A stretch of DNA of 36,415 nt from Thermoplasmata archaeon (GCA_030037955.1 JASHPT010000155.1:1-36415), one strand, 5' to 3'. Counted from the stretch's first letter, positions 4,634 through 16,702 are shown. Notes: generated from the sequence alone by a model not told the origin. Numbers and translations: made by a program.

Positions 4634-5083
4634 TTACGCTCGGTCAGTCGGCAGACGGTTCGGCTCGAGATCCAGTTTCCGGAGGCCGAGGGTCTCGTCC
4701 ATCGGTCGGGCCCAGCTGCGGCCCGGGAAGGTGTCCACGAGGATCTCGTTCAACACCCAGACGGTGCCGCGCATCAGGTGGCCCCCCACCAGGCTGTGGT
4801 CCGGTGCGGAGAGGGCGGCATGCAGGTGCACCGATGGTCCATCAGCCTCGGCGAGAGAGCCATGGAGGCCGACCAGCTCGTGGGGTTCCGGCAGAGGCTT
4901 CTGGACGTACTCCGATCCGTTCCAGTACCCGATCGTCGCGTCCTTCAGCATTCCGATACCGGAGACGACCACGGCGGCGCGAATGCTGTGGTCTCGCGCG
5001 AAGCCTGCGAGAGAGGCGAACAGGTCCTGGCCCTGATCGAGCCGAAGCATCCAGCGCGTACCGTCCGAGAGAGCTTGCATCAT
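4634..5083 (-). CDS. PPC/DUF296 domain protein
   Basis: 149 residues, the usual size for single-domain PPC (plants and prokaryotes conserved, DUF296) proteins. Typical features are SGIGMLKDATIGYW near residues 41-54, the central HLHAALS and the GGHL motif; in this family such histidines cluster at a metal site of a trimer. The plant relatives carry AT-hooks and bind DNA, but here only the PPC domain is present, so DNA binding cannot be assumed. There are two adjacent ATG codons (5083 and 5080); a TTAA-containing TATA-like box lies 27 nt before the second one, so the real start may be 5080. It is divergent from larE, with about 80 bp between the starts. Confidence 0.85.
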   Translation of the reverse strand: MMQALSDGTRWMLRLDQGQDLFASLAGFARDHSIRAAVVVSGIGMLKDATIGYWNGSEYVQKPLPEPHELVGLHGSLAEADGPSVHLHAALSAPDHSLVGGHLMRGTVWVLNEILVDTFPGRSWARPMDETLGLRKLDLEPNRLPTDRA

Positions 5084-5102
5084 CGGCGGCAGCGTGACCG
5101 GC

Positions 5103-5113
5103 CGTTAAGGGCG
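5103..5113 (-). promoter_or_regulatory. TATA-like box for the PPC gene
   Basis: CCTTAACGG on the minus strand is centred at about 5107, 27 nt before ATG 5080. This spacing predicts a transcript that begins at or next to the start codon (leaderless). Confidence 0.4.
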
Positions 5114-5165: not shown

Positions 5166-5987
5166 ATGGAGTCGTCCGCCCGCGGGACCGCCCTCCGGAA
5201 GCCCGGGACCCCCGAGGAGATCGTTGAGCGATTGGTCGGCGGGGGTCCTACCCTGATCGCTCTGTCGGGCGGCGTGGACTCCGCCGTCGTCGCGTCGTTG
5301 GCCCGCGAGGCGCTCGCCACCGATGCCGTGGCGGTCACCCTCTCCGGCCCCGCCGTCGCAACCTCCGAGGTCGATGCCGCCGTTCAGGTGGCCTCCGCCA
5401 TCGGCATCCGACACGTCCTGCTGAGCTCCGACCCTCTCTCGGACCCCCGGTACGCCGAGAATCCGTCGAACCGATGCTACTTCTGTCGCCGCCACGAGGG
5501 GGGCCTGCTGCGCGAGTGGGGAGCGACCCACGCGATCGAGACCTATCTCGACGGAACCCAGCTCGATGACCTTGGGGACGACCGGCCCGGGCTCCGAGCG
5601 ATGGACGAGCATGGCTTTCGTCATCCGCTCGTTGAGGCCGGCTGGGCGAAGGCCGACGTGCGCGCCTATGCACGTCGGACCGGGCTCCCCAACTGGGACC
5701 GGCCGTCCAACGCCTGTCTCTCGTCCCGGATCGCTCACGGCCAGGCCGTTACCCTTGACCTGTTGGACCGTGTGGGGGCCGCGGAGGCGTGGCTGACGGC
5801 CCGCGGCTTCCGACGTGTGCGGGTCCGGGTGGCCGGCCGGGCGGCACGAGTCGAGGTGGACCCCACCGAGGTCTCGCGGTTGATGGCCCCGGCCACGGTC
5901 GGTCCGCTCCACGAGGCGCTCGGCCGCCTTGGGTTCGCCTCCGTAGAGATCGACCCGCGGGGCTACCGGAGCCGGGCGGTCGCATGA
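5166..5987 (+). CDS. larE: LarE-family ATP-dependent sacrificial sulfur transferase
   Basis: 273 residues, normal LarE length. The N-terminal PP-loop SGGVDS is at residues 34-39. Cysteines occur in RCYFC (C104, C107) and in PSNACLSSR (C184), the position matching the sacrificial cysteine of lactobacillus LarE. LarE proteins with an extra CxxC are described as binding a [4Fe-4S] cluster that supplies sulfur, so this may be the cluster type. The known role is thiolation of the pyridinium precursor of the nickel-pincer cofactor of lactate racemase. No larB, larC or larA is in the window, so the substrate here is open; related PP-loop sulfur transferases are often annotated loosely. Its stop overlaps the uvrB start in ATGA, so the two are translationally coupled. 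Confidence 0.88.
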   Translation: MESSARGTALRKPGTPEEIVERLVGGGPTLIALSGGVDSAVVASLAREALATDAVAVTLSGPAVATSEVDAAVQVASAIGIRHVLLSSDPLSDPRYAENPSNRCYFCRRHEGGLLREWGATHAIETYLDGTQLDDLGDDRPGLRAMDEHGFRHPLVEAGWAKADVRAYARRTGLPNWDRPSNACLSSRIAHGQAVTLDLLDRVGAAEAWLTARGFRRVRVRVAGRAARVEVDPTEVSRLMAPATVGPLHEALGRLGFASVEIDPRGYRSRAVA

Positions 5988-8050
5988 CGCCGGCTCGCCG
6001 GCCATCCCAGCTTCGGGGCCACGCGCCCGCGGCGGTGGACGCTTCGCAACGCTTCGAGCTCGACTCCGAGTTGACGCCCCAGGGAGACCAGCCCAAGGCC
6101 ATCGCCGAGCTCGTTCGTCGGCTCAAGGCAGGCGAGCGGTTCGAGACCTTGCTCGGCGTCACGGGCTCGGGCAAGACCTTCACGATGGCTCACGTCATTC
6201 AGCAGCTCCAGCGACCGACCCTGGTCGTGTCGCACAACAAGACGCTCGCCGCGCAGCTGGTGACTGAGTTCCGGGCGCTCTTCCCGCGGAATGCGGTCGA
6301 GTACTTCGTGAGTTACTACGACTACTATCAGCCCGAGGCGTACGTGCCTCAGATCGACCTCTACATCGAGAAGGACGCCTCGGTCAACGAGGAGATCGAC
6401 AAGCTCCGGCACCGGGCGACCCAGGCACTGCTCACGCGTCGGGACGTCCTGATCGTTGCCTCCGTGAGCTGCATCTATGGACTGGGCTCACCCGAGGAGT
6501 ACCGCGAGAACACCCTGATCCTCCGGAAGGGAGAGGAGATCGGCCGCCAGGCGCTCCTCGACCATCTGGTCCGGCTCAAGTACTCCCGGAACGACACGGA
6601 ATTTCAACGCGGCCGGTTCCGGGTGCGCGGGGGGACCATCGATATCCAGGGCTCCGGAGAGTCACTGCACCGCGTCGTCCTCGAGGGCGATACGATCGCA
6701 GGTCTCTACGAGCTCGATCACCTCTCCCAGGAGGAGATCCGGGAAGTCGCCTCCTTCACGGTGTTTCCGGCCACGCACTTCCTCACCGTGGATGCGCGAC
6801 TCGAGGAGGCCCTGTCACAGATCAATGCCGAGAAGGAGGCCCGGGTGAAGGAGCTCCATGACGGAGGGCACCTGGTCGAGGCCCAGCGTCTCAAGAGCCG
6901 GACGGAGTACGACCTCGAGATGATCCGGGAGACCGGCTTCTGCAGCGGCATCGAGAACTACTCCCGGTACTTCTCGGGCCGACCGGCGGGTGAGCCCCCG
7001 TTCACACTGTTGGACTTCTTCCCGCCCGATCTCCTGACCTTCGTCGACGAGTCGCACGTGACATTGCCCCAGCTCCAGGGCATGTACAAGGGGGATCGGA
7101 GCCGCAAGGACAACCTGGTCGAGTTCGGCTGGAGGCTGCCGTCCTGCCGCGACAACCGTCCGCTCAAGTTCCCGGAGTTCCTCTCCCACGTGGGGCCGAT
7201 GGTCTTCGTCTCCGCCACGCCGGGTCCGTTCGAGCTCAAGCACTCGAGCGGGGTGGTCGAGCAGATCATCCGGCCCACCGGGCTGGTGGACCCCGGGGTC
7301 GAGGTCCGGCCGCTCAAGGGCCACATCGCCGACCTGGTCGAGGAGCTCCGGCGCCAGGTGGCTCGGCAGGAGCGATCCCTGGTCACGACGCTCACCAAGG
7401 CGACCGCCGAGGAGCTCTCCTCCTATCTCGCGAACCTGAACTTCAAGGTCCGCTACCTCCACTCCGATGTCGAGACGCTGAAGCGCATCGAGATCCTGCG
7501 GGACCTGAGGGTCGGCCGATTCGACATCCTAGTCGGCATCAACCTGCTCCGAGAGGGTCTCGACCTCCCCGAGGTGAGCCTCGTGGCGATCCTGGACGCG
7601 GACAAGGAGGGATACCTCCGCAGCGACACCTCGCTCATCCAGACCGCCGGCCGCGCCAGCCGGAACGTGGGCGGCCGGGTGCTGCTCTACGCCGACCGGG
7701 TCACCGGATCGATGGCCCGGGCGATCGCGGAAACGACCCGACGCCGCGACCTCCAGCTGGCCTACAACCAGGAGCACGGGATCGTGCCCGAAACGATCGT
7801 CAAGGAGGTGCGGTCCCTGCTCGCCGCGTCCGAGGAGGCGGAGTCCGGCGACCTCTCCACCGCCGGTTTGGGAAAGAAGTGGAGGGAGCGGCTCCCGATG
7901 CTGATGGCGAACCTCGAGGAAGAGATGCGTCTCGCCGCCGAGCGCCTCGACTTCGAGGAGGCGGCCCGGATCCGCGACCGGATCCGGGAGATCGAGCGGA
8001 AGGCCGGCCTGGGCCGGGCCGTCCGGGCGCCGGCGAGCGCCTCGGCCTAG
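5984..8050 (+). CDS. uvrB: Excinuclease ABC subunit UvrB
   Basis: 688 residues from ATG 5984, close to the usual 660-690. It acts in nucleotide excision repair: UvrA loads it at damaged DNA, it opens the duplex with its beta-hairpin and recruits UvrC. Visible motifs are Walker A GVTGSGKT (58-65), the beta-hairpin YYDYYQPEAYVPQ (about 105-117), TFVDESHV (Walker B), the late helicase motif QTAGRASRNVGG, and a C-terminal UVR motif (LDFEEAARIRDRIREIE) for UvrC contact. The open frame extends upstream into larE, but homology starts at about residue 22 and the ATG overlaps the larE stop. No uvrA or uvrC is in the window. The 3' end overlaps the convergent MFS gene by a shared CTAG. Confidence 0.97.
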   Translation: MTPARRPSQLRGHAPAAVDASQRFELDSELTPQGDQPKAIAELVRRLKAGERFETLLGVTGSGKTFTMAHVIQQLQRPTLVVSHNKTLAAQLVTEFRALFPRNAVEYFVSYYDYYQPEAYVPQIDLYIEKDASVNEEIDKLRHRATQALLTRRDVLIVASVSCIYGLGSPEEYRENTLILRKGEEIGRQALLDHLVRLKYSRNDTEFQRGRFRVRGGTIDIQGSGESLHRVVLEGDTIAGLYELDHLSQEEIREVASFTVFPATHFLTVDARLEEALSQINAEKEARVKELHDGGHLVEAQRLKSRTEYDLEMIRETGFCSGIENYSRYFSGRPAGEPPFTLLDFFPPDLLTFVDESHVTLPQLQGMYKGDRSRKDNLVEFGWRLPSCRDNRPLKFPEFLSHVGPMVFVSATPGPFELKHSSGVVEQIIRPTGLVDPGVEVRPLKGHIADLVEELRRQVARQERSLVTTLTKATAEELSSYLANLNFKVRYLHSDVETLKRIEILRDLRVGRFDILVGINLLREGLDLPEVSLVAILDADKEGYLRSDTSLIQTAGRASRNVGGRVLLYADRVTGSMARAIAETTRRRDLQLAYNQEHGIVPETIVKEVRSLLAASEEAESGDLSTAGLGKKWRERLPMLMANLEEEMRLAAERLDFEEAARIRDRIREIERKAGLGRAVRAPASASA

Positions 8051-9335: not shown

Positions 9336-10148
9336 GTGCCCGCGGACGCGCACACCCGACCGGCCTCGGGACTCGGTCTGCTCCGACGGAGCGGCGCCGT
9401 GACCGAATTGCTCTTCCTGCACGAGTGCGCGACCCGGGAAGTGACCCAGCTTCGGCCGGTCGCCGGGCGGCTGGGCCTCACTGTCCAGGCCGCGTCGCAT
9501 ATCTTTCGCCAGCTGCGCCGCCGGGGGCTGGCCGAGGTCCGGGCCGACCGCTACCGGCCCACGGTCGCCGGGATCGCCTGGCTCCACGCGGCCTTCGGGG
9601 CGGTCCGCGACGACCTAGACGACCGTCTCCAGCGGTTGCACATCATCCGCACCACGCGGGCGGTCGCGGCGGGAAGGATCCTAGCCGGCTCTCCGGTGGT
9701 CCTGGAGGTCCGACGGGGAGTCCTGGAGGCTCGGGTCGGCCGACAAGGCGCCTCCCGGGGCACCGCTCGTACGAGTGCCCGGCACGGAGAACTGGTGGAC
9801 GTGGTCGACCTCGAGGGGATCGTCCCGCTCGACCGGGCCGAGGTACGGATCGTCACGATGCCGGATGCCGCGGCGCTCGACCCGTCCGTCCTTGCGAAGC
9901 TCCGCCGCATCGTCCACTCCGCCGGCGACGGACTTCTCGCCGCCGTGGGTGCCGAGGCGTATCACTGGTTCCAACGCGCTACTCCCCGACCCGTGCTCCG
10001 GTACGGGGTCGCCGCTTCGGCGACCGAGGCGTCCAAGGTCGGGGTCCCGACCACGATCGTCGTGCTGGAGCGGGACCTGGCGCGGCTCCTCGCCCAGTTC
10101 GACCAGCCACAACCGCCCCCGTTGACGGTGCGGCGTCTAGGCGGCTGA
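9336..10148 (+). CDS. Archaeal winged-helix transcriptional regulator
   Basis: 270 residues. Residues about 25-75 form a winged helix-turn-helix (VAGRLGLTVQAASHIFRQL is the HTH, followed by RGLAEVRADRYRPTVAG as the wing). The long C-terminal part, with LEVRRGVLEARVG and GELVDVVDLEGIVPL, resembles the second domain of a family of archaeal predicted regulators whose ligand is unknown. The start is GTG 9336 with a weak TATA-like CTCTTTTGA about 29 nt upstream. It is divergent from the MFS gene (92 bp between starts) and convergent with the B12 ATPase gene, overlapping it by 12 bp. Either neighbour could be its target. Confidence 0.75.
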   Translation: MPADAHTRPASGLGLLRRSGAVTELLFLHECATREVTQLRPVAGRLGLTVQAASHIFRQLRRRGLAEVRADRYRPTVAGIAWLHAAFGAVRDDLDDRLQRLHIIRTTRAVAAGRILAGSPVVLEVRRGVLEARVGRQGASRGTARTSARHGELVDVVDLEGIVPLDRAEVRIVTMPDAAALDPSVLAKLRRIVHSAGDGLLAAVGAEAYHWFQRATPRPVLRYGVAASATEASKVGVPTTIVVLERDLARLLAQFDQPQPPPLTVRRLGG

Positions 10149-11447
10149 CGCCGAGCGCCCGGGCAGAACCCCGGCCGGGCGGAGCACTTCGAGAAGTTCG
10201 GCCGGGCTCTGCACGACCCGGGCGCCGGTGGCGACGAGTCGCGCCCAGAGCTGCTGCGCTGCCCCTCCCGTGAAGTCCCGGCGGCTCCAGTCCCCGCCGC
10301 CGAGCAGCAGGATGGGGGTCCGCCCGGCGTAGGGCATCAGGTCCTCGAGGTTGGCGAGGTTGCCCGGCCCTACCGGGAACGGGGCCACCACGATCCGGTC
10401 CGCGTGGTCCAACAACCGGCGTTCCTCGGCGCGACTGGCGTCGCTGAGAGGAGCGAACGGCACTTCGGTCGCGACCGGTATCCCGAGCTCTTCCGCCGTC
10501 GTGTGGTCGCTGTCGAAGAGTGCCACCACGCCGCACGTCACCGTGAAGCCCTCCTCCCAGAGCTGGCGCAGGACGGGGGTTCCCGTGCCGCCACCGGCGA
10601 CCACGTGGACCCGCAACCCCGGGGCCGGAGGCCGTGGCCGGGGGACCTCCGTGCGCAGTCGCGGGATCAGGTAGGGAACTCCGCTGCGCGGGTCCTCCCT
10701 CAGGTCGGCCACGACCCCCCAGACCTCCTGCAGGAGGGCCGGGGAAAGCACGGCACGGGCCGGGCCCTCGGCCACGAGACGGCCGTGCTGCAGGACCGCG
10801 ATGCGGTCCGCAAAGCGGGCCGCAAGGTTCAGGTCGTGCAACGCCGCGATGGCCGCACGGCCCTCGGTGTGGCAGCGCGCCCGGACCCGGTCGAGAACCT
10901 CGAGCTGGTGGGCCATGTCGAGATGGGCCGTCGGCTCGTCCAGCAACAGACACGGGGTCTCTTGCGCCAGCACCCGGGCCAGTCGAAGGCGCTGTCGCTC
11001 GCCTCCGCTGATCTCCCACGCGCCGGACTCCCATCGGTCGCCCAGTCCGACCTCGTCGAGCGCGGCCTTGGCGATCCGACGCTCGCTGTCCCCCTCGGTG
11101 GTGAACGGAGGGAGATGCGGGTACCGGCCGTACATCACGTAGTCGAGCAGACTCACGTTGTCTCCCGGTGGCTCCTCCTGGGGCATCCAAGACACTCGTC
11201 GGGCCCGCTCGTTGATGGAGAGCGCATCCACCGGGGTGCCCAGCAGGCTCACGTCTCCCGACTCGCGGGGTACGAGCCCGAGCAGCGCGCGGATGAGCGT
11301 GGTCTTCCCCGCCCCGTTCGGACCGGCAATGGCGAGCAGCTCCCCCGGAGCTACCGCCAGCGTCACGTCCCGCAGTACCCGATGGTCGCCCAGCCGAACG
11401 CTGAGCGAGGACAGGGACAGCGGCGGCCCCGCCGCGCCGATGCTCAT
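10137..11447 (-). CDS. btuD: B12/iron-chelate ABC transporter ATP-binding protein with C-terminal extension
   Basis: 436 residues. Residues 1-260 are a complete ABC ATPase: Walker A GPNGAGKT (42-49), signature SGGERQRLRLARV, Walker B CLLLDEPTAHLD and the switch His in ALHDLNLAARF; the spacing is that of the FecE/BtuD group that drives corrinoid, heme or siderophore import. Residues about 280-425 form an additional Rossmann-like domain beginning VHVVAGGGTGTP and containing GRTPILLLGGGDW, not part of the standard ATPase. The start ATG 11447 overlaps the permease stop (ATGA), so the genes are coupled. Corrinoid specificity is inferred from neighbouring DUF71 and the second binding protein; iron-chelate import is the alternative. 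Confidence 0.85.
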   Translation of the reverse strand: MSIGAAGPPLSLSSLSVRLGDHRVLRDVTLAVAPGELLAIAGPNGAGKTTLIRALLGLVPRESGDVSLLGTPVDALSINERARRVSWMPQEEPPGDNVSLLDYVMYGRYPHLPPFTTEGDSERRIAKAALDEVGLGDRWESGAWEISGGERQRLRLARVLAQETPCLLLDEPTAHLDMAHQLEVLDRVRARCHTEGRAAIAALHDLNLAARFADRIAVLQHGRLVAEGPARAVLSPALLQEVWGVVADLREDPRSGVPYLIPRLRTEVPRPRPPAPGLRVHVVAGGGTGTPVLRQLWEEGFTVTCGVVALFDSDHTTAEELGIPVATEVPFAPLSDASRAEERRLLDHADRIVVAPFPVGPGNLANLEDLMPYAGRTPILLLGGGDWSRRDFTGGAAQQLWARLVATGARVVQSPAELLEVLRPAGVLPGRSASAA

Positions 11448-12577
11448 ACCGCCGGGCCCCCGGTGAAGGTTCGGCGCCGATAGAGCAGATAGACGAAGAA
11501 CGGAGCGCCGACGAAGGAGGTGGGGATCCCGACCGGCAGCACGACGGTCGGAATGACGACCTGGGCGACATCCCAGGCCGCCGCCAGGAACACGGCACCC
11601 ATCGCCGCCGACAGGGGTAGCACGGATCGATAGTCCGGGCCCGCGAGTCTCCGGACGATGTGCGGCGACACCAGTCCCACGAAGCCGATGACCCCGGTGA
11701 ACGCGACGGCCGTGGCCGTGAGCAGCGTCGTCGTGAGCACCAGTTGTCGCGCGACGCGCCGGCCGTCCACCCCGAGGCTGTGAGCCACGTCGGGGCCCAG
11801 CTGGAGGATGTTCAACTGACGCGCGCGGAGCGCGACCACGGCGCCGGCGATCATGAGCGCGCCCACCACGATCCCGGCCCGGCCCCAGGTGGCGCCGGTC
11901 ATTCCGCCGAGCAACCAGAAGCTGACCTCGAGGTCGCCCAGCGGATTGAGCAGGAGGAAGGTCGCGAGGATCGCCGAGAACAGGGCTGCGAGAGCTACCC
12001 CGGTGAGTACCAGGGTCTCTACGGCCCGGGTCCGACCGGCGGCCAGGTACACCACGGCCCCGGGGATCAGACCGCCCAGGAATGCGAAGACCGGGAGAAC
12101 CAGGTAGGCGGAGGCCAGGTCGATCTGGAAGACGAACAGGAGGGACGCGCCCATGGCCGCCCCGGAGGACAGCCCCAGCAGGTAGGGGTCGGCCAGCGGA
12201 TTGCGGAAGACCCCCTGCAGCGACCCCCCGGAGAGTCCGAGGGCCGCCCCGGTGGCCAGGGCGAGGACGACGGCCGGCATCCGGGCCCCCCAGACGATCT
12301 CCACCCAGATCGTGCACTGACGCACCGAGGTCGGATACGCACCACACGCCGAACCTCTGAGGAGGCCCTGGAAGCTCTGGTGCAGCAGGATCGATTCTAC
12401 GACGCTCACCGGGATCGGAACCGGTCCGATGAGCGGGGAAAAGAGGACGAGTCCCGCCCCGACCACCGCGAGTCCGAGGAGGGCGATCCAGCGGAGCCTC
12501 CGTCGCCGCAGGAAGGTCGCGGCCAGGGACTCGGTGCCGGACGGAGCGTCGGGGTCGGCCGTCCGGCCCGCGGCCAC
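11444..12577 (-). CDS. btuC: B12/iron-chelate ABC transporter permease (FecCD family)
   Basis: 377 residues with around ten membrane segments, a length usual for FecCD/BtuC permeases plus a 30-residue N-terminal tail. Family motifs are WGARMPAVVLALATGAALGLSGGSLQGVFRNPLADP-type sequence in the first half (about residues 95-130) and GFVGLVSPHIVRR in the second half, which contacts the ATPase. The start is GTG 12577, 10 nt after the binding-protein gene stop. Order binding protein, permease, ATPase on the minus strand is the standard import operon. It would form a homodimer in the membrane with two ATPase subunits. Confidence 0.92.
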   Translation of the reverse strand: MAAGRTADPDAPSGTESLAATFLRRRRLRWIALLGLAVVGAGLVLFSPLIGPVPIPVSVVESILLHQSFQGLLRGSACGAYPTSVRQCTIWVEIVWGARMPAVVLALATGAALGLSGGSLQGVFRNPLADPYLLGLSSGAAMGASLLFVFQIDLASAYLVLPVFAFLGGLIPGAVVYLAAGRTRAVETLVLTGVALAALFSAILATFLLLNPLGDLEVSFWLLGGMTGATWGRAGIVVGALMIAGAVVALRARQLNILQLGPDVAHSLGVDGRRVARQLVLTTTLLTATAVAFTGVIGFVGLVSPHIVRRLAGPDYRSVLPLSAAMGAVFLAAAWDVAQVVIPTVVLPVGIPTSFVGAPFFVYLLYRRRTFTGGPAV

Positions 12578-12587
12578 AGCGCCGGAC

Positions 12588-13655
12588 CTACGGAGACGGA
12601 TATAGCGTTGGGTGGACGATGTGCAGGAGCACCGGAAGCTCGAAGATCAGGGTCGGATCCGGTTCCGAGACCAGCGTGACGTCGAGGGCGACCTTCGTCC
12701 CGTTCAGCTGACTCCAGTACGGCGCCCCGGAGGTCGGAGACGCCCACTGGGCCGGGGTCTCGTTCTCGACCAGCCAGGGGTCGTTCCAACTCGTCCCGTA
12801 GAGGATGATCTGGGGGCCGTCGTTCAGCACGACGCTGCCGTTGAGCTCGAAGTACAGAAGCGGGGTGGTTCCGGCGACGTTGACGGCGCCGAGCGCGTCG
12901 ATGAGGGACTGCCCGAAGGAGTCGGGCCCGTAGGTGTAGTAGCCACCGGAATCGTAGTAGTAGGTGAGGAGCACCGTCGGCAGCGCGTTGCCGTTCGTGG
13001 AGAGGTTCGAGTCAAAATTGGCGGCGGCCACGAGCTGGGCGTCCAGGGCGGCCTCGAGCGCGGTGCCCGTGCTCGCGACCGCCGGAACGATCGATGCCAC
13101 GAGCTGGACATCGCTCACGATGCCCTGGAGCGTCGTCGGGTTCAGCATGACGACCGGAATGCCGAAGGTTACGGAGATCTCCTCGACGTCGGCGGCGGAC
13201 GTGTAGGTCGGGGCGAGGACGACCTGGGGGCTCAGGTTCAGCAGCTCGTCCACATCGAGAGACGGGTAGTCGCTGATGCAGAGGCCGGCGGAGATGTTCC
13301 AGAGCGCGCTCTGGTTCGGACTATATTCGTTGAGCAGACCGCCCGGGATTCCGGCGTCGCATCCGACTCCGACGACCCGGTCCCGCAGGCCGAGCCGGTA
13401 GACGATGTCCATGATGCTCGGCGCGAGCACGACGATCCGGGACGGGTTCTCGGCCACGACGACGGTGCGCCCGAGATCGTCGACCACGGTCACCGTCGGA
13501 CCCGAGATGTGGGTGCTCGGCGGATGCAGCTCCCAGTAGACGGCGCCCCCGACCACCGCGACTCCCGCGATGACCAGGATCGCGACCACGATGAGGGCAC
13601 CCGGGACCCGCGTCCGGCGGCTGCCGTCCGACGACGGCGCGTCATTCAAAGACAT
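12588..13655 (-). CDS. btuF: Membrane-anchored corrinoid/iron-chelate binding protein (BtuF/FepB-like)
   Basis: 355 residues. One hydrophobic segment (about 18-42) after a basic N-terminus acts as an uncleaved anchor or signal, so the domain would sit outside the cell. VTVVDDLGRTVVVAENPSRIVVLAPS (opening, about residues 53-80) is typical of the type-III binding-protein fold, followed by LGLRDRVVGVGCD and a long helix linking two lobes. Several N-x-S/T sequons fit an exposed archaeal protein. First gene of the import operon; a strong TATA box lies 27 nt before ATG 13655. Which ligand it binds is inferred from neighbours. Confidence 0.88.
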   Translation of the reverse strand: MSLNDAPSSDGSRRTRVPGALIVVAILVIAGVAVVGGAVYWELHPPSTHISGPTVTVVDDLGRTVVVAENPSRIVVLAPSIMDIVYRLGLRDRVVGVGCDAGIPGGLLNEYSPNQSALWNISAGLCISDYPSLDVDELLNLSPQVVLAPTYTSAADVEEISVTFGIPVVMLNPTTLQGIVSDVQLVASIVPAVASTGTALEAALDAQLVAAANFDSNLSTNGNALPTVLLTYYYDSGGYYTYGPDSFGQSLIDALGAVNVAGTTPLLYFELNGSVVLNDGPQIILYGTSWNDPWLVENETPAQWASPTSGAPYWSQLNGTKVALDVTLVSEPDPTLIFELPVLLHIVHPTLYPSP

Positions 13656-13675
13656 TGTAACTCAGGCAAACACGA

Positions 13676-13687
13676 TTTACTATAAGG
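13676..13687 (-). promoter_or_regulatory. TATA box of the ABC import operon
   Basis: CCTTATAGTAAA on the minus strand is centred 27 nt before ATG 13655. It is preceded by GC-rich sequence and fits a leaderless start of the binding protein-permease-ATPase transcript. Confidence 0.6.
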
Positions 13688-13718
13688 TCTTCCCGATGTC
13701 GGGGCGAAGGCGGCCGGG

Positions 13719-14636
13719 TCAGACCGGTACGGGCGCAAATGCGTTCGGTGGGCCCGTCCAGTCCACGGAGTGGGGGTGCAGGAGGTGCGCCAAAAGTCGC
13801 GTTCCCTCCGCGACCCGAGGGCCGGGGCGCGAAAGGTACGAGTCGGCGTCCACGGCAAAGACCCGTCCGGTGCGGACGGCGGGTAAGGACGCCCACCCCG
13901 GCAGGGTTCGCAGCCGGTCGGCTTCCTGGAGGGCACGCGCGAGGTGGTAGCCGCAGGGCGCGACGACGAGCACTTCCGGCGCCCAGCGGAGGACCTCGTC
14001 CCAGGGAATCCGGGTCGATTCCTCCCCGCGGTGGGCGAGAGTGTCGACGCCCCCGGCCGCTTCGACCATTTCCGGTACCCAGTGGCCGGCGCAGAAGACC
14101 GGGTCGGCCCACTCCATGCAGAAGACCCGCGGTCGCTGTGACAACGGGGCCGTTGCCCTCCGGACCTCGGCGATCTCCGACCGCAGCCGGGACACGAGGG
14201 CGGCGGCCTCGGCCGTGCGACCGGCGTGAGCCCCGAGGTCAGTGATGTTGTCGAGTATGCCCTCGAGGGAGCGCGGCGTCATCCAGACGATGTCGGGCCG
14301 GGGTGTCAGACCCGCCAGTGCCCGCGTCACTTCGGTGCCGGACGGCGCGCAGACCTGGCAGAGATTCTGCGTCAGCAGCAGGTCGGGACGGGCGTCGCGG
14401 AGGATGCCTTCGTCGACCTCATAGAGCGTCCCCTTCTCGTGCAGTTGCCGCGTGACCCGCTCATCGACCTCACGCGGAGAGAGTCCCGCCAGGTCGACCG
14501 CGAGACGAACCACCACGGGCTTCCGCTTCGCGTCCGCCGGGTAATCGCACTCGTGCGACACGGCGCGGAGCTCCGCTCCGAGGCCCAAGGCATAGGTCAT
14601 CTCCGTAGCCGCCGGAAGGAAGGACACGATGTTCAT
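13719..14636 (-). CDS. Cytosolic-type cobalamin/corrinoid-binding protein (BtuF-like, no signal peptide)
   Basis: 305 residues from ATG 14636 (MNIVSFLPAATEMTYALGLG). This is the COG0614/BtuF fold, starting directly at the first strand with no signal peptide or anchor, unlike the neighbouring binding protein. The two lobes are joined by a long helix (ITDLGAHAGRTAEAAALVSR). Cysteines are seen in SHECDYP, TQNLCQVCAPSG and VVAPCGYHLARAL. Signal-less BtuF-like proteins of this type are common and often called cobalamin-binding. The absence of export suggests a cytosolic corrinoid-handling role. Its stop lies 64 bp upstream of the import operon start codon, same strand; the start is divergent from the asparagine-synthetase-like gene (73 bp). 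Confidence 0.82.
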   Translation of the reverse strand: MNIVSFLPAATEMTYALGLGAELRAVSHECDYPADAKRKPVVVRLAVDLAGLSPREVDERVTRQLHEKGTLYEVDEGILRDARPDLLLTQNLCQVCAPSGTEVTRALAGLTPRPDIVWMTPRSLEGILDNITDLGAHAGRTAEAAALVSRLRSEIAEVRRATAPLSQRPRVFCMEWADPVFCAGHWVPEMVEAAGGVDTLAHRGEESTRIPWDEVLRWAPEVLVVAPCGYHLARALQEADRLRTLPGWASLPAVRTGRVFAVDADSYLSRPGPRVAEGTRLLAHLLHPHSVDWTGPPNAFAPVPV

Positions 14637-14709
14637 CGACGGGTACGCGCGCCGGCGCTGGTTCCTGCGATTTCCGGGCGCGTAGAAGAGCGTTCTCCCC
14701 GGCATCTTC

Positions 14710-15759
14710 ATGTCGGGACACGCGTCCCCCCGGACGGGCCGTCCGCTGGCCCGGACATTCCGGATGTCGGTCCCGACCGAACGCGCACTCGCCGCGGACT
14801 CTGAGCTCGGTCGGGCCGCCGCCGAGGTTCGGGAGCTCGTAATCCGTGCCGTCGCCCGTCGCCCGGCGGACTGCCTCCTGTTGTCCGGGGGACTGGATAC
14901 GGCCATCCTGGCCCCGCTTGCCGCCGAGGCCGGCACGGCGGCCGCGGTCACGGTGCTGACGTCGCCCGAGGCCCCGGATCGGCCCTATGCGGCGACCGTC
15001 GCGGCCCGCCTCGGGTGGGCCCATACGGTCGTCGACGTGTCGCTCGACGACCTGGTCCACGAGCTGGATTTCGTGGTCCGGACGCTGCGAACGTTCGACC
15101 CGATGGAGATCCGCAACAGCCTCGTAGTGGCCCGCGGCCTCCGCGAGGCCGTGCGGCAGGGCCACTCGCGAGTCATGACGGGGGACGCGGCGGACGAGCT
15201 CTTCGGAGGCTACTCCTTCATGTGGGGAAAGCCGGACGCGGAGTTCGAAGAGTACTCCCGTCGGATGGCCGCTACGATGCGCTTCTCGTCGATGCCGATG
15301 GGGAAGGCCCTGGACGTGGACGTCCGGGCGCCGTATACGGATCCCGAGCTCGTTCGGTTCGCGACCGGTCTCCCGAAACGCCTCAAGGTCGGCGTCCGGG
15401 ACGGAGCGACGGTGGGAAAGTGGGTACTCCGGTGGGCGTTTCCGGACTGCCCGAGCCAGTGGAGGCGAAAGGACCCGATCGAGGTCGGGTCGGGCGCGAC
15501 CCGCCTGCCCGAATGGTTCGCCGGACGAACGTCGACGGAGTCCCTCGGGGTGCAGCAGGGTCGGATCCTGCGCGAGGATCGTGTCGAGATCCGGGACGCA
15601 GAGCACCTCGCGTACTACGAGGCGTTCCGCCGGATCTACCCGGAACTGCTCGCCCAGCGCCGGCCAGGTGCCCAGACCTGTGCCCACTGCGGCTTCGACC
15701 TGCCCCGGCCGGACTCCACGTTCTGCATCACGTGCGGGGCGTACCCGGCGCGGCCCTGA
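14710..15759 (+). CDS. Asparagine-synthetase-like PP-loop protein with C-terminal zinc ribbon
   Basis: 349 residues (ATG 14764 is an alternative start, removing 18 residues). It has the ATP-pyrophosphatase domain of AsnB-type enzymes: PP-loop SGGLDT (59-64), TGDAADELFGGY (about 157-168) and VRAPYTDPELVRFA (about 204-217). The N-terminal glutaminase domain of AsnB is absent, so ammonia would have to come from elsewhere. A CxxC-x11-CxxC zinc ribbon (C324, C327, C339, C342) closes the protein. The family adenylates a carboxylate and transfers nitrogen to form an amide. Next to B12 transport and DUF71 genes, a corrinoid side-chain substrate is conceivable, but this is inference. The DUF71 gene follows after 20 nt, probably in the same transcript. 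Confidence 0.82.
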   Translation: MSGHASPRTGRPLARTFRMSVPTERALAADSELGRAAAEVRELVIRAVARRPADCLLLSGGLDTAILAPLAAEAGTAAAVTVLTSPEAPDRPYAATVAARLGWAHTVVDVSLDDLVHELDFVVRTLRTFDPMEIRNSLVVARGLREAVRQGHSRVMTGDAADELFGGYSFMWGKPDAEFEEYSRRMAATMRFSSMPMGKALDVDVRAPYTDPELVRFATGLPKRLKVGVRDGATVGKWVLRWAFPDCPSQWRRKDPIEVGSGATRLPEWFAGRTSTESLGVQQGRILREDRVEIRDAEHLAYYEAFRRIYPELLAQRRPGAQTCAHCGFDLPRPDSTFCITCGAYPARP

Positions 15760-15779
15760 GCCGCCGAGGGACATTGCAG

Positions 15780-16496
15780 GTGCCGCGACAGGCCGGCACC
15801 GGCCGTCTGCCGGCCGTACTGTTCTGGAGCGGCGGAAAGGACGCGGCCTTCGCCCTCCACGAGATCCAGCGCGGAGCCACGTGGGACGTCGTCGCCCTAC
15901 TGACGACGGTGGAGGAACGTACGCGACGCGTCGCGATGCACGAGGTGCGGTCCGCGCTCCTGGCGGCGCAGGCGGCGTCGGTAGGTCTCCCGCTGGTCCG
16001 CGTTCCGTTGCCGCCGTTCCCCCCGAACCGCGTCTACGAGGCGGGGGTCGGTGCCGCCCTGGACCGGTTGCGGTCCCGGGGCGTCCGGCACGTCGTGTTC
16101 GGCGACCTCTTTCTGGAAGACATCCGAACGTACCGGGAGCGGCTGATGGCTCATCGTGGGATGCAGTGCGTGTTTCCGCTCTGGGGGCGAGATACGACTC
16201 ATCTCGCCCGCGAGATGATCCGGTCGGGGTTGGAGGCGCGGGTCGTCTGCGTGGACACCCGTCGGCTCCCGGCCGGCGCGGTCGGTCGACGGTTCGACGA
16301 TACGTTCCTCCACGACCTTCCCGCCGGGGTGGACCCGTGCGGCGAAAACGGGGAGTTCCATACCTTCGTGACCGGCGGCCCGATGCTCCGGTGGCCGGTG
16401 AGCGTGCGGCTGGGCCGACGCCGCGACGGGCCGGAGTACGCGCGCGTCGACCTCCTCCCGGGGCCGGTGTTCCGGTCGCGCCGGAGCAAACCATAA
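15780..16496 (+). CDS. DUF71/COG2102 PP-loop ATPase, probably of the B12-salvage subgroup
   Basis: 238 residues from GTG 15780. N-terminal PP-loop WSGGKDA (16-22), where the usual SGGKDS serine is Ala; VFGDLFLEDIRTYRERLM in the middle; GENGEFHTF (188-196) near the end. The family includes diphthine-ammonia ligase (Dph6). A comparative-genomic study of DUF71/COG2102 separated a diphthamide group from a group linked to B12 salvage. The ENGEFHT form and the location beside B12 transporter genes favour the latter. Expected chemistry is ATP-dependent amide formation in the cytosol. Dph6 remains the alternative; archaeal Dph6 would be encoded elsewhere in the genome. The frame is open far upstream but overlaps the preceding gene, so the GTG after its stop is chosen. 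Confidence 0.8.
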   Translation: MPRQAGTGRLPAVLFWSGGKDAAFALHEIQRGATWDVVALLTTVEERTRRVAMHEVRSALLAAQAASVGLPLVRVPLPPFPPNRVYEAGVGAALDRLRSRGVRHVVFGDLFLEDIRTYRERLMAHRGMQCVFPLWGRDTTHLAREMIRSGLEARVVCVDTRRLPAGAVGRRFDDTFLHDLPAGVDPCGENGEFHTFVTGGPMLRWPVSVRLGRRRDGPEYARVDLLPGPVFRSRRSKP

Positions 16497-16524: not shown

Positions 16525-16686
16525 GGGAGCATAGGCTAATCTGGCAGACCAGCGGGCTCCAGTCAGGTCTCCTGCGAAGGGGATCTTTGCATAGGGTCAG
16601 CGGAGGGCCGCTTCGGCGGACCGATGACGAGTGACTGGAGCGCGCGGAGAGACCCGCATATCGGGGTTCAAATCCCCGTGCTCCCA
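16525..16686 (+). tRNA. trnW: tRNA-Trp (anticodon CCA) with intron
   Basis: Acceptor GGGAGCA (16525-16531) pairs with TGCTCCC (16679-16685), discriminator A 16686. T8-A9 follow, then a D arm beginning GGCT with a C-A mismatch at 12-23. The anticodon stem GCGGG (16552-16556) pairs with CCCGC (16653-16657). The loop reads CT-CCA-G before the intron, so the anticodon is CCA (16559-16561). The T arm is CGGGG-TTCAAAT-CCCCG (16662-16678). The intron removed is 16563-16651. CC follows the discriminator, without the final A. Confidence 0.93.
16563..16651 (+). other. tRNA-Trp intron (89 nt) at position 37/38
   Basis: The 4-bp central helix CTCC (16557-16560) with GGAG (16646-16649) is flanked by 3-nt bulges AGT and AGA, giving cuts after AG on each side: the archaeal bulge-helix-bulge rule. 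The inner helix on the intron side is weak. Inside are a UUCG-capped stem (CCGC-TTCG-GCGG, about 16608-16619) and a box-C-like ATGACGA (16624-16630). A second, longer pairing is possible: GCTCCAGTCA (16556-16565) with TGACTGGAGC (16632-16641). Confidence 0.8.
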
Positions 16687-16702
16687 CCCGTCTACCGGTG
16701 AC

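Follow-up and report, generated by a model that had tools for sequence, protein, structure and literature searches.

The window analyzed here is a stretch of 36,415 nucleotides from Thermoplasmata archaeon (GCA_030037955.1 JASHPT010000155.1:1-36415), whose assembly is 89.6% complete in 168 contigs. It contains a locus in which a BtuFCD-type importer adjoins a second, signal-less BtuF-like protein (BtuF2) and two PP-loop enzymes, one resembling asparagine synthetase (AsnB-like) and one of the DUF71/COG2102 family. The genes and their domain matches were as follows (ABC, ATP-binding cassette):

9336..10148, plus strand: winged-helix protein with a DUF7839 domain, candidate B12-locus regulator (PF25211, E 6.3e-7)
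10137..11447, minus strand: BtuD-type ABC ATPase with a C-terminal extension (ABC_tran, E 1.5e-24)
11444..12577, minus strand: BtuC-type permease (FecCD, E 3.6e-75)
12588..13655, minus strand: BtuF-type binding protein with an N-terminal membrane segment (Peripla_BP_2, E 1.6e-11)
13719..14636, minus strand: signal-less BtuF-like protein, BtuF2 (Peripla_BP_2, E 1.2e-24)
14764..15759 (start possibly 14710), plus strand: predicted AsnB-like PP-loop amide synthetase, glutaminase-less, with a C-terminal zinc ribbon (PF00733, Asn_synthase, E 1.1e-29)
15780..16496, plus strand: DUF71-B12 PP-loop protein, GENGEFHTFV (PF01902, Diphthami_syn_2, E 5.7e-31)

BtuF2 lies upstream of the BtuFCD operon and is divergent from the AsnB-like gene; DUF71 begins about 20 bases beyond the end of the latter. 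An earlier reading of this DNA, made from the sequence alone (the sequence-only reading), had described a complete binding protein-permease-ATPase operon next to these three further genes, and all of the parts that it named were recovered. The BtuF, BtuC, and BtuD genes form a compact minus-strand operon, the first 70 residues of BtuF2 are free of hydrophobic segments, the AsnB-like protein combines a PF00733 domain with a C-terminal CxxC..CxxC and no glutaminase, and the DUF71 protein matches PF01902 and carries the ENGEFH motif. The gene calls also stood, with the starts adjusted to 15780 for DUF71, 14636 for BtuF2 (MNIVSFLP), and, as the likelier choice from the alignment, 14764 for the AsnB-like gene. 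The arrangement is not a chance pattern of open reading frames. The entire region is syntenic in the nearest named relative, Thermoplasmata archaeon JOPF021 (L065), whose contig is apparently that of G209, the other genome of the genus to have the locus. One more genome of the genus, G181, lacks the AsnB-like and DUF71 genes.

The best NCBIfam model for BtuD was the corrinoid ABC ATPase PRK09536 (291.6 bits over residues 2-352, next model 226; the cut-off of 537 was not reached), and for BtuC it was PRK09535 BtuC (215.9 bits, below the curated cut-off; FhuB 210.4). BtuF has a single hydrophobic N-terminal segment, with a hydropathy peak of 3.10 at residue 20. The subunit set is that of the Halobacterium-type BtuFCD importer, and the window ATPase is likewise C-terminally extended, with PRK09536 as its best, sub-threshold match, but the window locus adds a signal-less BtuF paralogue paired with an AsnB-like gene. 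An iron-siderophore transporter was rejected because the loci of relatives carry dedicated B12 genes.

BtuF2 contains the motifs SHECDYP and TQNLCQVC and matched BtuF structures in a profile search; it is probably a cytosolic corrinoid-binding protein. The gene is divergent from the AsnB-like gene in five genomes of the class (G209, G101, G165, G230, and G173) and co-directional with it in two bacterial loci (L066 and L075). The BtuF1 protein of G193 (L046 17782-19662, minus strand) has a long N-terminal extension of beta-propeller-like repeats.

The AsnB-like protein starts at its PP-loop domain; Pfam found nothing in it besides PF00733 and a weak hit to a zinc ribbon, and the class II glutaminase domain is absent. 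An alignment of 41 family sequences showed an invariant PP-loop (SGGLD; S41, G43, and D45), D141/D144/E145, K219, R223, K236, and four cysteines. The zinc ribbon was found in all relatives inspected but the truncated L144 and was absent from three true AsnB outgroups. The AlphaFold2 model (predicted local distance difference test, pLDDT, 95.2) had asparagine synthetase (template modeling score, TM, 0.70-0.71) and beta-lactam synthetase as its nearest solved folds in Foldseek. It shares its fold, PP-loop, catalytic lysine, and acidic residues with the synthetase domain of asparagine synthetase B (1CT9, TM ~0.70) and with beta-lactam synthetase (1JGT, TM ~0.6), but differs from both in lacking a glutaminase, in its extra zinc ribbon, in the sequence PMExRNS in place of TTVRAS, and in its B12 gene context. 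Alignment to E. coli AsnB matched up the catalytic lysine and the E-x-R-x-P region and placed PMExRNS at the site of the TTVRAS loop, which we take to touch the substrate in AsnB. The glutamine-hydrolyzing asparagine synthetase model TIGR01536 gave 84.9 bits against a cut-off of 267. Given the missing glutaminase and the changed TTVRAS loop, an ordinary asparagine synthetase was rejected. The protein has the features of a PP-loop amide synthetase (SGGLD PP-loop, catalytic lysine, and Asn_synthase fold) and not the CobQ/CbiP fold. The simplest reading, which we infer from these features, is an active amide synthetase with free ammonia as its donor and a substrate other than aspartate. An apparent 860-residue AsnB-like fusion in L047 was set aside, as it looks like open-frame read-through at high G+C, and a plasmid search with the AsnB-like protein returned only distant AsnB relatives.

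Within COG2102, the DUF71-B12 subgroup (ENGEF/Y-H) is told apart from Dph6 (EGGE/D-x-E) by motif (de Crecy-Lagard et al. 2012, PMC3541065). The window protein reads GENGEFHTFV, with a histidine where Dph6 has E188, and scored 80.1 bits with the archaeal Dph6 model TIGR03679 against a cut-off of 197. The only other DUF71 gene found in the window genome (L056) encodes the Dph6 motif GEGGEFETLV, and its product reached 178.6 bits with the same model. Tree inference grouped the window DUF71 with H-type sequences and split it from three Dph6 sequences at 100/100. Plain Dph6 identity was rejected on the motif, the tree, and the separate Dph6, and the assignment to the B12 type made in the sequence-only reading holds. 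The window protein shares with the published subgroup the ENGEF/Y-H motif, BtuCDF adjacency, and occurrence in B12-salvaging archaea and bacteria (PMC3541065). What sets it apart is its pairing with two other proteins, an AsnB-like enzyme and a BtuF lacking a signal, in genomes from which CbiB and CobS are missing. AsnB comes up in that paper in two ways only, as a domain fused N-terminally to DUF71 in a few archaea and as a source of ammonia, and a referee queried the job of the AsnB domain (PMC3541065). DUF71-B12 was adjacent to B12 transport or CbiB genes in the window and in 16 external AsnB-like loci.

Close relatives of the AsnB-like protein were found in 9 of the 250 genomes of the class. 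Three of these AsnB-positive genomes have DUF71 (G000, G209, and G193) and five have CbiA (G101, G165, G230, G242, and G173), and none has both. The AsnB-like locus of G230, G173, and G242 continues with CobB/CbiA and then BtuF-BtuC-BtuD, and CbiA also lies in the locus in G101 and G165. The CbiA score clears the cut-off in G230 and G242 (403-410 bits against 254); in sister genera, true CobB/CbiA takes the place of DUF71 between BtuF2 and BtuFCD. Among 45 family genomes, 2 had both DUF71 and CbiA, 24 had only DUF71, 12 had only CbiA, and 7 had neither one (Fisher p 1.6e-4, a value that ignores kinship). In one genome without CbiP or CbiB, a tetrapyrrole methylase adjoins CobB/CbiA (G161:C12:11801-14120), possibly forming a short tetrapyrrole amide pathway.

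Outside the class, the family is spread over archaea and bacteria. A GTDB profile search yielded 80 loci, 37 of them from Nitrososphaerota ammonia oxidizers and their kin and 43 from other organisms. Counting CbiB, CobS, CobU, CobT, CobY, BtuR, CbiZ, and DUF71 as B12-specific, we found such genes in 24 of the 43 but in none of the 37 ammonia-oxidizer loci. DUF71 was present in 16 of the 24, mostly one or two genes away, and the DUF71 neighbors with a readable motif were of the H type. The trio of BtuF2, AsnB-like, and DUF71 was also seen in Chloroflexi (L066) and Gammaproteobacteria (L075). Four clusters illustrate the range:

L109: TonB-CbiB-CobD-AsnB-like-DUF71-BtuFCD-CobU-CobT
L070: CobY, CobS, CobT, CbiB, CobD, BtuFCD, AsnB-like, radical S-adenosylmethionine (SAM) protein, DUF71
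L066: BtuF2-AsnB-like-DUF71, then BtuF-BtuCD
L075: TonB-DUF6580-AsnB-like-BtuF2-DUF71

In the tree, the Thermoplasmata AsnB-like sequences joined that of L066 (99/75), and the B12-context label was strongly clustered. Since the arrangement recurs across many phyla, a chance neighborhood was rejected. The same gene set stands in distant phyla beside dedicated B12 genes and cobalamin riboswitches, which bears out the proposal of a corrinoid locus whose neighborhood should recur. A role for the AsnB-like family in corrinoid salvage outside the ammonia oxidizers is very likely.

Several side observations were made in these loci. Genes for a radical SAM protein of cluster c48 repeatedly lie near AsnB-like, DUF71, and BtuCD genes in B12 loci (L070 10908-11678, L073, L100, and L114). 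Most AsnB-like genes of the Nitrososphaerota loci (L083-L141) sit beside genes for an XRE-type regulator, an aldo/keto-reductase-like protein, and a prenyltransferase-like protein (names by sequence inspection). The CobQ/CbiP of the ammonia oxidizers is a protein of ~280 residues from which the glutaminase half is absent (L178 3488-4333, L179 3174-4013, L180 3706-4569, and L181 4690-5556), and its gene sits inside a CobD-CbiP-CbiB(-CobS)-CobY cluster.

Cobalamin-type riboswitches precede the AsnB-like/B12 clusters in L066, L075, L109, L110, L133, and L134. L066 has two, one abutting BtuF2 (4969-5112) and one before BtuF-BtuCD (7808-7953), and that of L133 (6593-6797) lies directly before AsnB-like-DUF71. 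A scan of the window at the Rfam gathering thresholds found no riboswitch. In six of the family's genomes (G000, G209, G193, G230, G173, and G242), the winged-helix DUF7839 gene adjoins BtuD or the AsnB-like gene, and homologs (28% over near full length) close the BtuDC-BtuR-DUF71-BtuF clusters of Dehalococcoidia L115 (15510-16328) and L130 (15796-16593), where no cobalamin riboswitch was detected. Because its relatives end these riboswitch-less B12 clusters, the DUF7839 protein may stand in for the riboswitch as a candidate corrinoid-responsive regulator.

The window genome encodes the cobalamin-binding (small) subunit of methylmalonyl-CoA mutase beside MeaB and therefore uses adenosylcobalamin. 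Searches of this genome for CobQ/CbiP (TIGR00313), CbiB, CobS, CbiA, CbiZ (PF01955), and corrin methylases found none, and its single tetrapyrrole methylase is presumably Dph5. CbiP, CbiB, CobS, and CbiZ were absent from 9/9 AsnB-positive Thermoplasmata genomes in searches that had positive controls in well-known genomes; because they are missing from all nine, assembly gaps are an unlikely cause. CbiP was also absent from all 21 external genomes with the AsnB-like gene in a B12 context (completeness figures not given), and CobS from the genomes of L066, L075, L087, L115, and L130. The absence of CbiP counts in favor of the corrinoid interpretation given in the sequence-only reading.

We favor a reading, to which we assign a probability of about 45%, in which the locus imports corrinoids and the AsnB-like enzyme together with DUF71 (or CbiA) amidates or repairs their side chains, served by a cytosolic BtuF2. 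BtuFCD would import cobamides, and BtuF2 would hold the imported corrinoid in the cytosol. The AsnB-like enzyme, as a stand-in for CbiP, would use ATP to adenylate a corrinoid side-chain carboxylate, which free ammonia would then amidate. DUF71-B12, or CobB/CbiA in the sister genera, would carry out a related amidation on other side chains. Under-amidated or partly hydrolyzed corrinoids would be restored in this way to the fully amidated form for methylmalonyl-CoA mutase. The observed basis is gene content, recurrence, riboswitch control in bacteria, catalytic residues, fold, and the missing corrinoid-building enzymes; we infer that the substrate is a corrinoid, that a side-chain carboxylate on it accepts nitrogen from ammonia, what BtuF2 does in the cytosol, and how the two PP-loop enzymes share the work. 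The AsnB-positive Thermoplasmata lack CbiP, CbiB, CobS, and CbiZ, so of the known corrinoid reactions that form an amide only the one on the side chains is left to them. The replacement of DUF71 by CbiA in the corresponding position of sister genera also points to it. The proposed reaction is that of the corrinoid amide synthases CobB/CbiA and CobQ/CbiP, an ATP-dependent carboxylate amidation, but their fold is unrelated (P-loop synthetase plus class I glutaminase, as opposed to a PP-loop enzyme without glutaminase). The sequence-only reading had allowed for either amidation or re-linking in the cytosol. Amidation fits the fold and the conserved catalytic residues, whereas re-linking is not supported for the window organism, where, with CbiB and CobS missing, re-linking or removal of the nucleotide arm would leave a dead-end product.

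Several points weigh against this reading. Its substrate is a prediction, and it presupposes a natural supply of under-amidated corrinoids. Nineteen of the 43 loci outside the ammonia oxidizers lack a B12-specific gene in the DNA covered, and the ammonia-oxidizer branch of the family has a different fixed neighborhood. In genus g2 of the same family, DUF71 of the ENGEFH type lies outside B12 loci. The window DUF71 sits on a Thermoplasmata branch whose further members, where 20 kb could be read, are away from B12 loci, so the motif alone is no proof of a B12 role. The p value for DUF71/CbiA exclusion carries no kinship correction, nearly all of the genomes are metagenome-assembled, and that of the window is 89.6% complete.

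Cobamide remodeling is one alternative, in which DUF71-B12, aided by the AsnB-like enzyme, would remove or exchange the aminopropanol-nucleotide arm as CbiZ does (de Crecy-Lagard et al. 2012). The prediction came from the finding that bacterial DUF71-B12 and CbiZ are anticorrelated (PMC3541065), and several AsnB-like and DUF71 clusters do hold genes for rebuilding cobamides (CbiB, CobD, CobU, CobT, and BtuR). However, CbiB and CobS are absent from all AsnB-positive Thermoplasmata, three of which have DUF71, and CobS from the five external genomes named above; cleavage would destroy the cofactor there because the rebuilding enzymes are missing. CbiZ also coexists with AsnB-like-DUF71 in L100. 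PP-loop enzymes of this class, moreover, are known for forming amides and not for hydrolyzing them, and we regard remodeling as unlikely.

Equally doubtful is a target other than the ring side chains, such as a lower-ligand base, a corrinoid adduct, or a corrinoid-binding protein. The strong link is to import and riboswitches rather than to a given substrate, and the DUF71 relative Dph6 modifies a protein (PMC3541065), yet in the sister genera DUF71 is replaced by CobB/CbiA, whose known substrates are corrinoid-type side chains. It is improbable that the AsnB-like protein is a soluble substitute for CbiB, joining the aminopropanol linker to cobyric acid. PP-loop synthetases can take amines besides ammonia and the window genome has no CbiB, but a CbiB gene adjoins the AsnB-like gene in L070, L081, L109, L114, and L131, where no stand-in is needed, and without CobS the product could not be completed in the AsnB-positive genomes of the window family. 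An ordinary asparagine synthetase and Dph6 lying by chance beside an iron or B12 importer, as Pfam annotation alone would have it, is highly improbable given the absent glutaminase, the unconserved TTVRAS loop, the missing E188, and the separate Dph6 (L056), and is already contradicted by cross-phylum recurrence and riboswitches.

Elsewhere in the window, a further PP-loop enzyme, a LarE-type sacrificial sulfur transferase, is encoded at 5166-5987 on the plus strand (TIGR00268, 249.5 bits). A tRNA-Trp(CCA) at 16525-16688 on the plus strand has an 89-base anticodon-loop intron; ARAGORN finds it with its intron option and misses it by default.

Beyond the DUF71 paper, the open literature yielded no account of this AsnB-like family taking part in B12 salvage (subscription journals and preprints lay outside the search). 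We tentatively propose a new ammonia-dependent corrinoid amidation pathway, in which the AsnB-like enzyme, DUF71-B12, and a cytosolic BtuF would complete or repair scavenged corrinoids in archaea and bacteria without CbiP. DUF71-B12, whose role in the literature covered has been only a prediction since 2012, gains a partner family across phyla under cobalamin riboswitches, along with genomes in which its predicted hydrolytic role would destroy the cofactor. An open annotation question can now be reduced to a few in vitro assays. If the proposal is true, DUF71-B12 would act in synthesis and not in the hydrolysis predicted for it. Carboxylated corrinoids may also serve in nature as a usable source of B12.

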